NCBI GenBank assembly: GCA_025058835.1
Contig: JANXEI010000002.1
Coordinates: 310,001 to 374,000 of the forward strand
Source of the DNA: Acidilobaceae archaeon
Lineage (GTDB): Archaea; Thermoproteota; Thermoprotei_A; Sulfolobales; Acidilobaceae
Reading direction: 5' to 3'
DNA: 64,000 nucleotides
Positions 8,113-13,014 of the stretch are shown piece by piece; position 1 is the first letter of the stretch; every line of letters starts with the position of its first letter. A program made the translations under genes and the position numbers. The notes under the pieces were generated by a model. The model was given only the letters and a program-made list of their open reading frames with translations, was not told where the DNA came from and ran no database searches.

Positions 8113-8123
8113 TAGACTATAAA
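8113..8123 (+). promoter_or_regulatory. TATA-like element in the divergent 8091-8161 region
   Basis: GACTATAAAGC lies 39-49 bases before the ATG at 8162 and is the only good TATA match for the secreted-protein gene. A TTAAGC/GCTTAA inverted pair brackets the region next to the start of the minus-strand phosphatase. Confidence 0.5.
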
Positions 8124-8161
8124 GCTTAAAGAGGGAAGTAGATGGGATAACGAGGGGCCCT

Positions 8162-8695
8162 ATGGACAGGAGAGCTGCTGTAGCTCTGCTCCTAGCGGTG
8201 CTGCTAGCTCTGATTAACTTCAATACTTTGACGTATAGGGCCCCGCTTATAATAAGAGTTTATCCGTCTTTCGACGAGAGCCACCTCTGCTTCGGGTTTC
8301 AACCGGGGGTAGTGGAGGGTCTAGACGTTAGCGTGCTGGCGAATGGAAAGGTAGTGTGTAGGAGCGTGGGGGAGGACGTTTTCGAGAGCCTGAAGGTATT
8401 CGCTTTATTACCTCCAGGTGCTTATATGATAAAAGTGGGGAAAATCTACGTTAGCACAACAGTCCCGCGCCTGGTAACCATGTACGTTGAGGAGGGGGTC
8501 GAGGGAGCAGACTTGAGGGCCCTCCTTAGGGGTAACGGGAAGGTCTACGAGCTCTCGATTAGGGATGGGGGCAGAGTGGTCCTTTTAGTCCCCACGGGCA
8601 CCACTTCCTTCGAGGTATGGATTTACCTCAACGTCACCGTTCCTGGCGTTGAGAGGTTCAGGATAGGAGCATACCTTAACAGCCAGAACGGGTGA
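8162..8695 (+). CDS. Predicted secreted or membrane-anchored protein, first gene of the fibre-like cluster
   Basis: 177 residues with no family I recognise. The N-terminus is a signal peptide or signal anchor: MDRR, then a hydrophobic run to about residue 20 (AVALLLAVLLALINF). The remainder is rich in beta-strand-type sequence (IIRVYPSFDESHLCFGF, VLVPTGTTSFEVWIYLNVT), as expected for an exported beta-sandwich, with two Cys near residues 43 and 64. The next gene, the membrane winged-helix protein, overlaps the stop by 4 bases, so the two are likely made together. It could be a sensor partner or a minor envelope component. Confidence 0.75.
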   Translation: MDRRAAVALLLAVLLALINFNTLTYRAPLIIRVYPSFDESHLCFGFQPGVVEGLDVSVLANGKVVCRSVGEDVFESLKVFALLPPGAYMIKVGKIYVSTTVPRLVTMYVEEGVEGADLRALLRGNGKVYELSIRDGGRVVLLVPTGTTSFEVWIYLNVTVPGVERFRIGAYLNSQNG

Positions 8696-9456
8696 TCCCC
8701 ATGGCGGGGAAAATCGCGATCCTCGCGATCGTAGTGGCGACAGCACTAGCAGCGGTTGCCGAGGAGGTGGTGCTAGTGCCCCTCGACACCTGCTCTCACG
8801 AGGCCCTCCTTTACGCCAAGGAGAGAGGGTGGCTAGATTACCCTATCGCGATGCCGGCCGACCTGAAACAGCTTAGCTCTAGGACAAAGCTAGCGCTGAT
8901 CTCTGCATACCCCCCCGAGCCCCAACTAAAGCAAGCCGTGCTGGAAGTTGCCAGGGACACAGTGCTCTATGCCTCTTCTGATGTGCTTGATCTCCACTCG
9001 GAGCGACTGTTGAGGAGCGACCTACTGCAGCGCTTCTGCTGGGAGGGCGACGAGGGCTCTCTGAGGCTGGCTCTGGAGCCCCTTATGAAGAGGGAAGAGC
9101 AGGCGCTGATGTCAATGGTCTTGCTCTCTGCCGCCGCAGCTCTGGGCATAGCAGCCCTTGCCCACAGAGAGATCTCTGCTAGACTGGCCGAGACTGGAGC
9201 CATCATTGCCGTGTTCTTCATGAGGCTTCGGAAGCGCGGAGTTCTCACGAGGGAGGACATAGAGTCGCACCCTGTCAGAATTGCCATTCTAGAGGCCCTC
9301 AAAGCCTCGCCTCAGAGCTTCTCTGACCTGCAAAAGAGGACAGGGGTAGGGAGGGCAGTGCTAGAGTGGCATCTCGGCACGCTCAAGGCATATGGGATGG
9401 TAGAGGAGAAGAAGGTGGGCAGATCTAGAGTGTTCTTCCTTGCCTCAACAGAGTGA
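8692..9456 (+). CDS. Membrane-anchored winged-helix transcription regulator
   Basis: 254 residues with an unusual order. A signal-like segment (about 5-22) is followed by an extracytoplasmic domain of about 110 residues, a membrane span near 138-160 (MVLLSAAAALGIAALAH), then a cytoplasmic winged helix in the last 65 residues (HPVRIAILEALKASPQSF...TGVGRAVLEWHLGTLKAYGMV), ArsR/MarR-like. This topology would let an outside signal change DNA binding directly. GTG at 8692 overlaps the preceding stop; ATG 8701 is an alternative. It lies immediately before the promoter of the two fibre-like genes, so it is the obvious candidate regulator of them (inference). Confidence 0.8.
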   Translation: MIPMAGKIAILAIVVATALAAVAEEVVLVPLDTCSHEALLYAKERGWLDYPIAMPADLKQLSSRTKLALISAYPPEPQLKQAVLEVARDTVLYASSDVLDLHSERLLRSDLLQRFCWEGDEGSLRLALEPLMKREEQALMSMVLLSAAAALGIAALAHREISARLAETGAIIAVFFMRLRKRGVLTREDIESHPVRIAILEALKASPQSFSDLQKRTGVGRAVLEWHLGTLKAYGMVEEKKVGRSRVFFLASTE

Positions 9457-9464
9457 CTATAAGA

Positions 9465-9473
9465 TTTATATAT
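9465..9473 (+). promoter_or_regulatory. TATA box of the first fibre-subunit-like gene
   Basis: TTTATATAT, preceded by a purine pair, is a near-ideal archaeal TATA element. It is 34-42 bases before the ATG at 9507, and a Shine-Dalgarno-like GGAGA lies at 9496-9500. It suggests strong independent transcription. Confidence 0.65.
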
Positions 9474-9506
9474 GACATATCGCCCCTATTCGAGTGGAGA
9501 TGAGAG

Positions 9507-10184
9507 ATGAGGAATATGAGGAATAGATATGTAGTAGCAGCGGCTCTGTTGCTGGTAGCCCTCGCCATATCAGCCAACGCTACAGCATTCGTCTACAGGT
9601 GGCTAGTAGGTCAGGTAAACATACTTCAGGACGACCCAGATCAGGCAAGGGGCATCCTGTGCACAGGCTTCTACTCCAGCGCCGCTCAGGAGGGCATTAA
9701 CCTGCCATCTGCCGGCACCAACTACAACGCTCCCACATTTGTGGGCCAGGGCATCCAAGTAACTCCCGGAGCCGTCGAGTGCAGGTGGCTCCACAACAAC
9801 AGGCAGTACGCGCTCTATGAGTCCATACAGGCTTCCTTCTCGCTCACCGTGGGTAACTGGTACATAAAGGACTTCTACGGCTTCGGCTACTACCAGAGGA
9901 ACCCGAACGACCCCGGCCAGGTCTACGTGAGCTTCAGGGTAGCCAATGCACTCAATGAAGCCGCCGGAATTGTAGAGGCAAGGCTGTTCGTCTACAACGC
10001 ACAGAACAACCAGCAGGTGGCTAACCTAGACCTCAAGGTTCCGTCAGGCTTCACGCAGCCCATCGCTCTCCCAGCAAACGGCGCCTTCAGGCTGAGCCTC
10101 TACATAGAGTCAAACAGCCAGGTGCAGAACGCTGACTTCAGGATTGACTTCGCCGTATCGCCCAGCAACGAGCAGCACGAATAA
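9507..10184 (+). CDS. Secreted fibre-subunit-like protein 1 (possible TasA/AbpA-type)
   Basis: 225 residues. A class I signal peptide ends in S-A-N-A before TAFVYRW (cut predicted after residue 25). The mature protein is beta-rich, poor in Lys, rich in Asn, Gln and aromatic residues, with one Cys pair (C52, C92) that could form a disulfide. It is a paralogue of the next gene: both have YRWL-x-G-x-V after the signal, CTGFY, GTNY-x-APT, VTPGAV-x-C, YESI and W-x-IKDFY-x-FGYY. Exposed N-terminal strand, tandem paralogy, a SipW-like peptidase downstream and a strong promoter fit donor-strand fibres such as TasA or AbpA. That assignment is inference from context and layout. Confidence 0.8.
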   Translation: MRNMRNRYVVAAALLLVALAISANATAFVYRWLVGQVNILQDDPDQARGILCTGFYSSAAQEGINLPSAGTNYNAPTFVGQGIQVTPGAVECRWLHNNRQYALYESIQASFSLTVGNWYIKDFYGFGYYQRNPNDPGQVYVSFRVANALNEAAGIVEARLFVYNAQNNQQVANLDLKVPSGFTQPIALPANGAFRLSLYIESNSQVQNADFRIDFAVSPSNEQHE

Positions 10185-10196
10185 CCTTAGATACAG

Positions 10197-10214
10197 ACTA
10201 TAACTTTTTTATAC
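10197..10214 (+). terminator. T-run between the two fibre-like genes, overlapping a TATA-like element
   Basis: ACTATAACTTTTTTATAC lies between the paralogues. The T6 run (10205-10210) could end the first transcript, while CTATAA or TTTTATA could serve as the TATA box of the second gene (start 10245). The two roles cannot be separated by reading. Confidence 0.4.
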
Positions 10215-10244
10215 CCCCTCTCCCTCTTTTTCCATGGATCAGAA

Positions 10245-10898
10245 ATGAGGAGCAGGTATTGGCTAACTACGGCTCTAGCACTCGTGTTGCTGGTAGTCGT
10301 AGCTAACGCAACCGCATACGCCTACAGGTGGCTCGACGGTACCGTTCAGGTTGCACCGCCAAATAATGCCCAGGGAGCTGCATGCACCGGCTTTTACACG
10401 GAGAGGGCAGAGCAAGCAGACAACCCCCTCCCCGATCTAGGAACGAACTACGACGCTCCTACATATGGCCCTAACAGTATAACGGTGACCCCAGGCGCTG
10501 TGGTCTGCCAGTACACTCATGGAGGCAATACCTTCAATTTGTATGAGTCCATCTCTGTGACAGTGCCCATTACCAGCGGCACCTGGTGGATCAAGGACTT
10601 CTATGCCTTCGGATACTACGGCAACGGTTACACGGACAACGTTCACGTGTTCATAAGGGTGAAGAACATTATAAGCGGCGTGAACTTTGATGCGGCGGAG
10701 CTCAGGCTCTACAAGTTCCCAGGTGGACAATATGTAGGTATGATAGACCTAAAGAACAGCGGCTCCTCTCTCTATGTCATGCTGGCTTCCGGCGAGGCCC
10801 TGAGGCTGGACCTCTGGCTCGACACGGCTGCAGGAGCTTCAGGCACAGCAAACTTTGCTCTGGAGTTCTACGTCTCGCAGGAGAACGAGGCGCCCTAG
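10245..10898 (+). CDS. Secreted fibre-subunit-like protein 2 (paralogue of the 9507 gene)
   Basis: 217 residues. The signal peptide ends in V-A-N-A before TAYAYRW (cut after about residue 22). Shared blocks with the preceding protein run through the whole length (CTGFY, GTNYDAPT, VTPGAVVC, YESISV, WWIKDFYAFGYY), with conserved Cys at 47 and 88. Spacing and order are the same but identity looks low (about one third by eye), so this is an old duplication, possibly giving major and minor subunits as with TasA/TapA or AbpA/AbpB. ATG start at 10245. Pyrimidine-rich T-runs follow the stop. Confidence 0.8.
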   Translation: MRSRYWLTTALALVLLVVVANATAYAYRWLDGTVQVAPPNNAQGAACTGFYTERAEQADNPLPDLGTNYDAPTYGPNSITVTPGAVVCQYTHGGNTFNLYESISVTVPITSGTWWIKDFYAFGYYGNGYTDNVHVFIRVKNIISGVNFDAAELRLYKFPGGQYVGMIDLKNSGSSLYVMLASGEALRLDLWLDTAAGASGTANFALEFYVSQENEAP

Positions 10899-10904
10899 AG
10901 ACCA

Positions 10905-10926
10905 ACTCTTTTTAGCCCTTTTTCTG
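10905..10926 (+). terminator. T-rich stretch after the second fibre-like gene
   Basis: Two T5 runs (CTTTTTAGCCCTTTTTCTG) follow 11 bases after the stop of the second subunit gene. Archaeal termination commonly uses such U-rich tracts without a hairpin. Confidence 0.5.
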
Positions 10927-10948
10927 AACACCTTTCCTGGCGATTTGA

Positions 10949-11971
10949 TTGGGAGGGGTAACTCTTGCTGACCTGTTGAGGCTAGCCCTAACGGCTCTAG
11001 CTGTAGTGCTCGTGGCCCTCGTTGCTGGGAAGCTGCTCTGGCTGCCCATAGCCATAGTCGGGCCATCGGGAGGCCCCCCTTTTCTCGGGATAGCCACCTA
11101 TGTTCCGCTTGGCGGAGAGGGGCCGTACCTCTCCTGCGTAGATCTCTTGAGGAGCGGGTGCGAGCTAGTAGAAGATCCTCGAGCAGAGGGCAGGGCGTAC
11201 AGGGTGTTCCTGGAGATCCCCCTCGCTCTCTGGCTGCTCGTAGCTATCGGAGCGCCGCTGACGGCCTTCCTAGCCATATGGGCCTGGCGACCGCCTATAA
11301 GGCTGGTGCTCGCTGCCGCTGCCCTTCTCCTAACAGTGGACCTGGTGGCGATTTCCACTCTCTACGTAGATCAGGCAAGGATCGTCTATCAGATACCGGG
11401 CGTAGAGCTTGGGAGGGTGAGCTTAGACATGAAGGAGAGCAAGGCGAAGATCAACCTCACCCTTGGGGACTACAAACTGCTCTCCTCGTCCTGCGAGATA
11501 CCGGGCCTGGGCGAGGTCAACGCTTCAGTGAAGGGCTCCGTCATAGAGGTGGACGTCCCCTCAGCCCTCTTCGACTCGCTGTACAGCAGGAAGGCGGCAG
11601 AGAGACCTTTCCTCCTCTCCGTGCCGGCGAGGGTGGGGGACAGCTTTAGGATCTCCTGCACCAGCCAGCTGGACAAGGGGCGGCTGAGCGGTTCCTACAC
11701 TGTGCTCTTGACCTGGGAGGAACCAACTCTCAGAGCTAACGGGAGCTCTGTGATCGTCAGGAACCCCAACCCAGTTAAGCTGGAGGTAACCTTGGAGCTC
11801 AGGGATACTGCATCTCTCCAGCTGCTGAAGAGAGAGAGGATTACGCTCCAGCCCCTCCAGGAGCTGTCCATAGACGTAAGGCAGTTCGGCAGGGGGAGAG
11901 TGGAAGCATCGATATTTTATTCTTTCCTAGGCGCGGAGAGGGGGCAGAAGGTTGAGCTCACAGCTAGATAG
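10949..11971 (+). CDS. Membrane protein with an extracytoplasmic beta domain, fibre-like cluster
   Basis: 340 residues, no family recognised. Membrane segments are near residues 8-36, 92-112 and 115-140. The C-terminal 200 residues are predicted outside and beta-rich (KINLTLGDYKLL, GSSVIVRNPNPVKLEVTLEL, SIDVRQFGRGRVEASIFYSF). The block PFLGIATYVPL after the first span resembles YLGISSYEL in the next gene, so the two may be related. TTG at 10949 overlaps no upstream gene; its 3' end overlaps the next gene by 20 bases. By position it may anchor or chaperone the fibre subunits (inference). Confidence 0.7.
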   Translation: MGGVTLADLLRLALTALAVVLVALVAGKLLWLPIAIVGPSGGPPFLGIATYVPLGGEGPYLSCVDLLRSGCELVEDPRAEGRAYRVFLEIPLALWLLVAIGAPLTAFLAIWAWRPPIRLVLAAAALLLTVDLVAISTLYVDQARIVYQIPGVELGRVSLDMKESKAKINLTLGDYKLLSSSCEIPGLGEVNASVKGSVIEVDVPSALFDSLYSRKAAERPFLLSVPARVGDSFRISCTSQLDKGRLSGSYTVLLTWEEPTLRANGSSVIVRNPNPVKLEVTLELRDTASLQLLKRERITLQPLQELSIDVRQFGRGRVEASIFYSFLGAERGQKVELTAR

Positions 11972-12581
11972 GCTTTTGGAGCTCTCTTTCAGGAGGAGGA
12001 GAGCCATTGCAGCGTTAGCCATCCTCTTGTCAGTCGCTTCCTCTCTGATCGGAATAGCACACTACTTCGTTCCTCTCCTAGTATACGAGGGATGGCTGAT
12101 GTCGGGTTATCTCGGCATCTCAAGCTATGAGCTAACGGTTGCTGGCAGCAGAGTTGAAATAAGACCTCTTGGCAGCATCTCCCTCATCTCCCTTGTGATG
12201 ATGGTCCTGATCGTTTCCTCTCTGCTCTTTTCGGCTCTGGCAGTCTTTGCCTACGTCTCGTTCAGAGAGAAGCTCTACATGGAGAGCGTTGTAGTCTCTG
12301 CCTTCTCCTCTGCTCTCAGCATGTCTCTCCTCTTCTCCATCATGAGGGTGATCACAGATGAGATACTGCCCTCCCTCCCCCAGAGGGGTTCTGTGAGCAC
12401 CTCGGGAGGGGTCCTGACTTTTGAGGCAGCGAGGGAGTTCAAGTCCACCCTTTACCTTCTCTACGAGGGTTATGGCACATATATGATACTCCTTTCTGCC
12501 GTCCTCTTCCTCCTCTCTGCCCTAGTCCTCTACTCTCGATGGAGGCTGGAGGGGAGCGAAGTTGAAGCACTCGATCAGTAA
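11952..12581 (+). CDS. Integral membrane protein, fibre-like cluster
   Basis: 209 residues with about four membrane segments (residues 18-40, 76-105, 115-138, 175-198) and a short extracytoplasmic loop after the first. A basic FRRRRA motif precedes the first span. No known family seen. It starts inside the previous gene, and its last codons overlap the start of the signal peptidase gene by 20 bases, so the three genes 10949-13014 look like one translationally coupled unit. Confidence 0.7.
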   Translation: MSSQLDRLLELSFRRRRAIAALAILLSVASSLIGIAHYFVPLLVYEGWLMSGYLGISSYELTVAGSRVEIRPLGSISLISLVMMVLIVSSLLFSALAVFAYVSFREKLYMESVVVSAFSSALSMSLLFSIMRVITDEILPSLPQRGSVSTSGGVLTFEAAREFKSTLYLLYEGYGTYMILLSAVLFLLSALVLYSRWRLEGSEVEALDQ

Positions 12582-13014
12582 GCTGCTCGAGGACAGGCAG
12601 AGCCTCGCAGCCCTAGCCCTCCTGATAGCTCTATACCTGATCTTCAGAGCAGCAGGCGGTGGCATGGCTGCGGTAAGCGGAGGGAGCATGGAGCCCTCCC
12701 TTCACAGCGGCGACCTGGTGTTCATCATAAAGAGCAACGATGTGAGGAAGGGCGACATAATAGTCTTTCGCTCCGGCGGGGGTTACGTGATCCACAGGGT
12801 CATAGATGTCTACTCGCTGGACGGGATGAAGTGCTACGTCACCCAAGGCGACAACAACCCGTTCCCAGATCCGGGAAGTCAGAGGTGCGCTGTGCCAGGG
12901 AGAACGGTCTATGGGGTTCCCGACGATCTGGTAGTAGGGGTCGTCATAGAGTTCCTCGGCTTTCCCGTGAAGATACCTTACGTGGGCAGCCTTGCCCTTC
13001 TCCTCAGGGGATAG
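12562..13014 (+). CDS. Signal peptidase I, SEC11/SipW type (S26B)
   Basis: Removes class I signal peptides outside the membrane. 150 residues: one N-terminal span (about 14-32), then box [16 protein letters not shown] with the nucleophile Ser, box D VIHRVIDV with His instead of the bacterial general-base Lys, and box [13 protein letters not shown]. The Ser-His-Asp arrangement is that of the ER and SipW-type enzymes. TTG start at 12562 inside the upstream membrane protein gene. A dedicated peptidase next to exported subunits parallels tapA-sipW-tasA of Bacillus. Confidence 0.93.

Follow-up and report, generated by a model that had tools for sequence, protein, structure and literature searches.

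How archaeal threads are put together has been described as unknown, and the search for their machinery as paramount (PMC9715654). A run of seven genes in an archaeal genome raises the question whether a filament and the means of its assembly are encoded there side by side. The window, that is the whole stretch of 64,000 nucleotides that was analysed, comes from an Acidilobaceae archaeon with a genome of 1.19 Mb (92.65% complete). The sequence-only reading had proposed a donor-strand fibre cluster made up of seven genes of the same direction, and all seven ORFs are indeed present on the plus strand:

8162-8695, plus strand: gene 1, ORF of 177 aa, secreted, by profile a third subunit paralogue, candidate cap/initiator
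8692-9456, plus strand: gene 2, ORF of 254 aa, membrane-tethered winged-helix regulator
9507-10184, plus strand: gene 3, ORF of 225 aa, predicted filament subunit A, mature from ~T26
10245-10898, plus strand: gene 4, ORF of 217 aa, predicted filament subunit B, mature from ~T23
10949-11971, plus strand: gene 5, ORF of 340 aa, catalytically dead signal peptidase domain, followed by TM helices and an Ig-like ectodomain of two lobes
11952-12581, plus strand: gene 6, ORF of 209 aa, membrane protein with four TM helices, consistently paired with gene 5
12562-13014, plus strand: gene 7, ORF of 150 aa, general signal peptidase I

Several neighbouring ORFs of the run overlap by 4-20 bases each. The plus-strand run extends beyond 13014 with a 196-aa UbiX-like ORF, S8e and SRP19, and an IMPase gene is a further neighbour of the cluster; genes 1 to 6 lie between this IMPase and the general peptidase gene. 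In a sister genome (an Acidilobaceae MAG, locus L022) genes 1 to 5 are found in the same order on one contig, which argues against a chance arrangement. The seven-gene order is thereby recovered as far as gene 5, with genes 6 and 7 of the sister located on a separate contig.

Genes 3 and 4 had been described as two tandem paralogous, secreted and beta-rich proteins, and this description holds. They are 42% identical to each other, and both carry a signal peptide and are rich in beta strands. The shared features named in the sequence-only reading were found in both proteins as well: a signal-cut site followed by an aromatic strand (start NAT-x-(F/Y)-x-YRW), a W-x-IKDFY-x-FGYY block, and a single Cys pair at near-equal spacing (C52/C92, 40 apart, in gene 3; C47/C88, 41 apart, in gene 4). 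An alignment with 15 relatives shows C52, C92, W118, D122, G127 and Y128 to be invariant. Relatives of gene 3 are present in 16 of the 147 genomes of the order, own genome counted. At E 1 no match to a Pfam family was obtained, single subunits compared by sequence with the PDB returned chance hits only, and the match of the first subunit profile to the PDB was a designed protein; the likeness to TasA that had been seen in the subunits found no sequence link in these Pfam and PDB searches. The camelysin family PF12389, tried as a marker of the subunit family, was rejected with matches in only 4 of 300 Thermoproteota genomes, and none was found in the own genome.

Profile comparison led further. 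With their mature parts the subunits match another set, shorter and of thread type (98.5%, E 2e-15, against 0.5% for the reversed control), and the profile of these thread-type subunits matches Saci_0406, the Sulfolobus thread protein, over its whole length (E 7.7e-6). As reference for this system we used the thread of Sulfolobus acidocaldarius with Saci_0406 and its cluster (PDB 7pnb, 8rzl; PMC9715654, PMC11607397). The window subunits are thus homologous to Saci_0406 by profile, via other Thermoproteota thread-type subunits, and share with it a Sec signal peptide and the aromatic N-terminal strand. They differ in being longer, with an insertion and the conserved Cys pair, and in their predicted mature N-terminus, which is Thr in both window subunits and not the Asp proposed to form an isopeptide bond in the Sulfolobus thread (PMC9715654).

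For the fold we turned to the AlphaFold model of gene 3 (pLDDT 86.6). The sequence-only reading had hinged on a mature N-terminus that is not buried in its own domain; in the model residues 24-34 are free and are the sole segment below pLDDT 50, while the globular part has block means of 83-98. Foldseek returned AbpA of Pyrobaculum calidifontis (7ueg) as the best match in the PDB (E 3e-4, prob 1.00), with moderate TM-scores (0.46/0.56) and a large rmsd (8.2); PapE, FimA and similar pilus subunits are among the weaker matches. The proposed AbpA likeness is therefore upheld by the fold, whereas at the sequence level neither of the profiles A1 and A6 retrieves AbpA. Since AbpA is the best fold match and the mature N-terminus is free in the model, we regard the products of genes 3 and 4 as donor-strand-filament-like. 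We infer filament formation, and consider it likely that the region 8162-12581, with genes 1 to 6, codes for a surface filament held together by donor strands, akin to the archaeal threads and bundling pili. The filament would most likely be a variant of the archaeal donor-strand filaments already described.

Subunits of cannula type, building a tube or a matrix between cells instead of a thin pilus, would also agree with some of these matches, as the tube protein Hyper2 (9bab) is the third match of the gene 3 model (E 9e-4, 22% identity) and genomes of Pyrodictium type contain related clusters. We consider this unlikely: AbpA is the better match and covers more of the model than Hyper2, which belongs to a tube of ~27 nm; the profile links lead to thread-type subunits; and polymerisation of cannulae without a chaperone, as reported by Sleutel et al. 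(title, as cited in PMC12326000), fits less well with the conserved membrane module of genes 5 and 6.

The surface-filament reading gains from gene 1, previously listed merely as a secreted protein. It is secreted, but its relation to the subunits had been missed: judged by its profile, gene 1 is a third paralogue of the subunit family, both with the mature parts (97.2%, E 4e-11; reversed control <1%) and at full length (98.8%, E 8e-17). We regard it as a candidate cap or initiator. A related second protein, the proposed cap Saci_0405, likewise stands beside Saci_0406 in Sulfolobus (PMC9715654), as does TapA beside the subunits in Bacillus (PMC10151520); gene 1 gave no profile match to Saci_0405. 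In gene 2 the N-terminus is hydrophobic, and a TM helix at ~137-155 is followed by a winged helix at residues 192-239 (Pfam HTH_20, E 1e-8), which confirms its description as a membrane-tethered winged-helix regulator.

A common element of the form GACTATAA-N2-YTTWWA, which the sequence-only reading had overlooked, is located ahead of genes 1, 3 and 4, with GACTATAA at distances of 47, 52 and 49 bases, respectively:

8115-8130, plus strand: promoter element of gene 1, GACTATAAAGCTTAAA
9455-9470, plus strand: promoter element of gene 3, GACTATAAGATTTATA
10196-10211, plus strand: promoter element of gene 4, GACTATAACTTTTTTA

The 1.19-Mb genome contains the pattern GACTATAANNYTTWWA five times without mismatch, at three loci and always before filament-type genes (reversed control 0). 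This count is partly circular as the pattern was drawn from these five sites, although the two unlinked ones were found after the first three. By these two sites genes 1, 3 and 4 are linked to two unlinked filament-type genes, a third subunit gene and, on another contig, a thread-type subunit gene. Of 244 upstream regions in ten loci, 12 contain GACTATAA, each of them that of a filament-type gene, relatives from other families included. The element may represent a type of promoter, or gene 2 may bind there. Copies with one mismatch number only two (L157 ~1501, C22:165925; L156 ~1501, C11:425347), and no obvious filament gene follows either of them. The third subunit gene, unlinked to the cluster, is a lone paralogue (L021, contig C11, 7686-8360, plus strand); the element is missing from its sister copy in L037. 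The other unlinked site (L137, contig C23, 1581-3529, minus strand) precedes a second filament system, in which a thread-type subunit of 193 aa is accompanied by a secreted protein of 456 aa that begins in a similar way.

This element also bears on the idea that the proteins are soluble or S-layer-associated and never polymerise. No filament has been observed, and generic beta-sandwich proteins are returned by Foldseek with weak scores too; yet filament subunits lead the matches by fold as well as by profile, the free N-terminus of the gene 3 model points the same way, and gene 1 shares its promoter element with unlinked subunit genes, so that we hold this idea to be quite improbable.

Gene 7 had been taken for a signal peptidase of SipW type. 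TIGR02228 identifies it as a signal peptidase I (86.7 bits at a cut-off of 51.85), but it falls far below the cut-off of the SipW model (44 bits, cut-off 190). It is the sole signal peptidase I found in the 92.65% complete genome, and the genomes G122, G170 and G171 of the same genus also have one each. In a further genome of the genus without a gene 3 relative (G099, locus L095) the gene 7 orthologue is located between IMPase, B3/4-like and UbiX-like, S8e, SRP19, so that the IMPase, UbiX-like, S8e and SRP19 neighbours are shared with the window. Because it is the sole signal peptidase I found and keeps the same neighbours where the cluster is absent, gene 7 is the general enzyme, which probably cuts the subunits, and not a dedicated peptidase.

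The likeness to tapA-sipW-tasA is accordingly partly hollow, as the peptidase is a neighbour irrespective of the cluster. In outline the Bacillus TasA/TapA/SipW system (PMC9674648, PMC10151520) remains similar, with a donor-strand subunit, a minor related initiator and an archaeal-type signal peptidase, whereas the Pfam and PDB searches described above gave neither a camelysin nor a TasA match. A tapA-sipW-tasA-like operon of seven genes with its own dedicated signal peptidase, which the 20-base overlap of gene 7 with gene 6 might suggest, is largely refuted and very improbable, given that the sole signal peptidase I found keeps its downstream neighbours in the cluster-free genome and that in relatives the dedicated peptidase is fused to gene 5.

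Genes 5 and 6 had been recognised as two coupled membrane proteins, which is correct as far as the membrane is concerned; that gene 5 is a fusion of a degenerate peptidase with an Ig-like part had escaped notice. An alignment with 26 relatives resolves gene 5 into a signal peptidase domain, TM helices and an ectodomain. Of the 27 proteins 24 retain the Ser, the His and both Asp and apparently represent active signal peptidases fused to an Ig-like ectodomain, and the catalytic residues are lost in the window protein and in two Desulfurococcaceae rows. An intact fusion stands beside the same subunit type in a genome of the same family (locus L126). The gene 5 tree has two clades that match the two subunit types (98/95); it calls for two changes for the death of the peptidase, although a single one may have occurred.

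The ectodomain is modelled by AlphaFold with high confidence as beta-rich with two Ig-like lobes. Its PDB matches are mostly two-domain Ig proteins: chains of PapD, YadV, FimC, DraB and Caf1M make up ~10 of the best 50 with low TM-scores (~0.18/0.27), and cytokine receptors as well as further proteins with two Ig domains are interspersed among them. The two lobes of the model may recall PapD-type pilus chaperones, from which gene 5 differs in being membrane-anchored and joined to a peptidase domain. That the ectodomain is itself a subunit paralogue was rejected by profile comparison.

The gene 5 fusion is present in 29 of 300 Thermoproteota genomes (E 1e-20 or better). The loci picked by gene 5 alone that were read (part of the set, mainly L119-L121, being left out) have a subunit gene nearby, and nearly all of them a gene 6; a homologue of gene 6, a protein with four hydrophobic helices, adjoins the gene 5 homologues in most loci. 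Gene 5, gene 6 and the subunit thus recur as a module across Thermoproteota. The Sulfolobus locus is without a peptidase-fused gene 5. Saci_0407/0408 as counterpart of gene 5 and the neighbouring 266-aa membrane protein as that of gene 6 look alike by eye, but are not counted as such, with profile values of 1.2% and 16.5%, noise level for gene 5. Such lookalikes of genes 6 and 5, one in the membrane and one with an ectodomain, were noted in the Sulfolobus thread loci L134 (8194-8994) and L135 (7071-7901), with profiles below significance.

In most relatives gene 6 is followed by a large secreted protein, possibly an adhesin or tip, which is absent from the window; the L024 protein has no match in the own genome. 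Examples of ~490-770 aa that begin like subunits are located at L024 10533-11999, L028 10292-11830, L029 10898-13153 and L032 2496-4808. In L146 (7618-9882) a gene 6 homologue is fused to a large secreted protein, and in L122 (3797-5893) and L129 (6785-8848) a gene 6-like start is found in such a fusion. The peptidase-ectodomain fusion and the fusion in L146 point to one machine. Association and fold suggest that genes 5 and 6 could serve as an assembly platform. More tentatively, they might be the machine, so far missing, that assembles the donor-strand filaments of archaea: most lineages would have a peptidase and a membrane-held two-Ig chaperone fused, with cutting and groove capping combined in one protein, and the lineage of the window would have kept the chaperone/platform half with a dead peptidase half. 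We put this forward as a possibility short of an even chance.

From the homology, fold, gene order and motif observed we infer the following course for the donor-strand filament. The products of genes 3 and 4 would be exported by Sec and cut by the neighbouring general signal peptidase, gene 7, and the membrane platform of genes 5 and 6 would receive or chaperone the newly cut subunits. The freed aromatic N-terminal strand of each subunit could then insert into the groove of the next, with the single Cys pair as a staple within each subunit and the product of gene 1 starting or capping the filament. Gene 2 or another factor may switch the regulon via the GACTATAA element.

For the Thermoproteota, the gene 5/6 pair that accompanies the subunit would be a candidate for the thread assembly machinery, and the GACTATAA element could serve as a marker of the regulon. 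Some of the genomes consist of a single contig and are probably those of cultured species, which makes the proposal testable.
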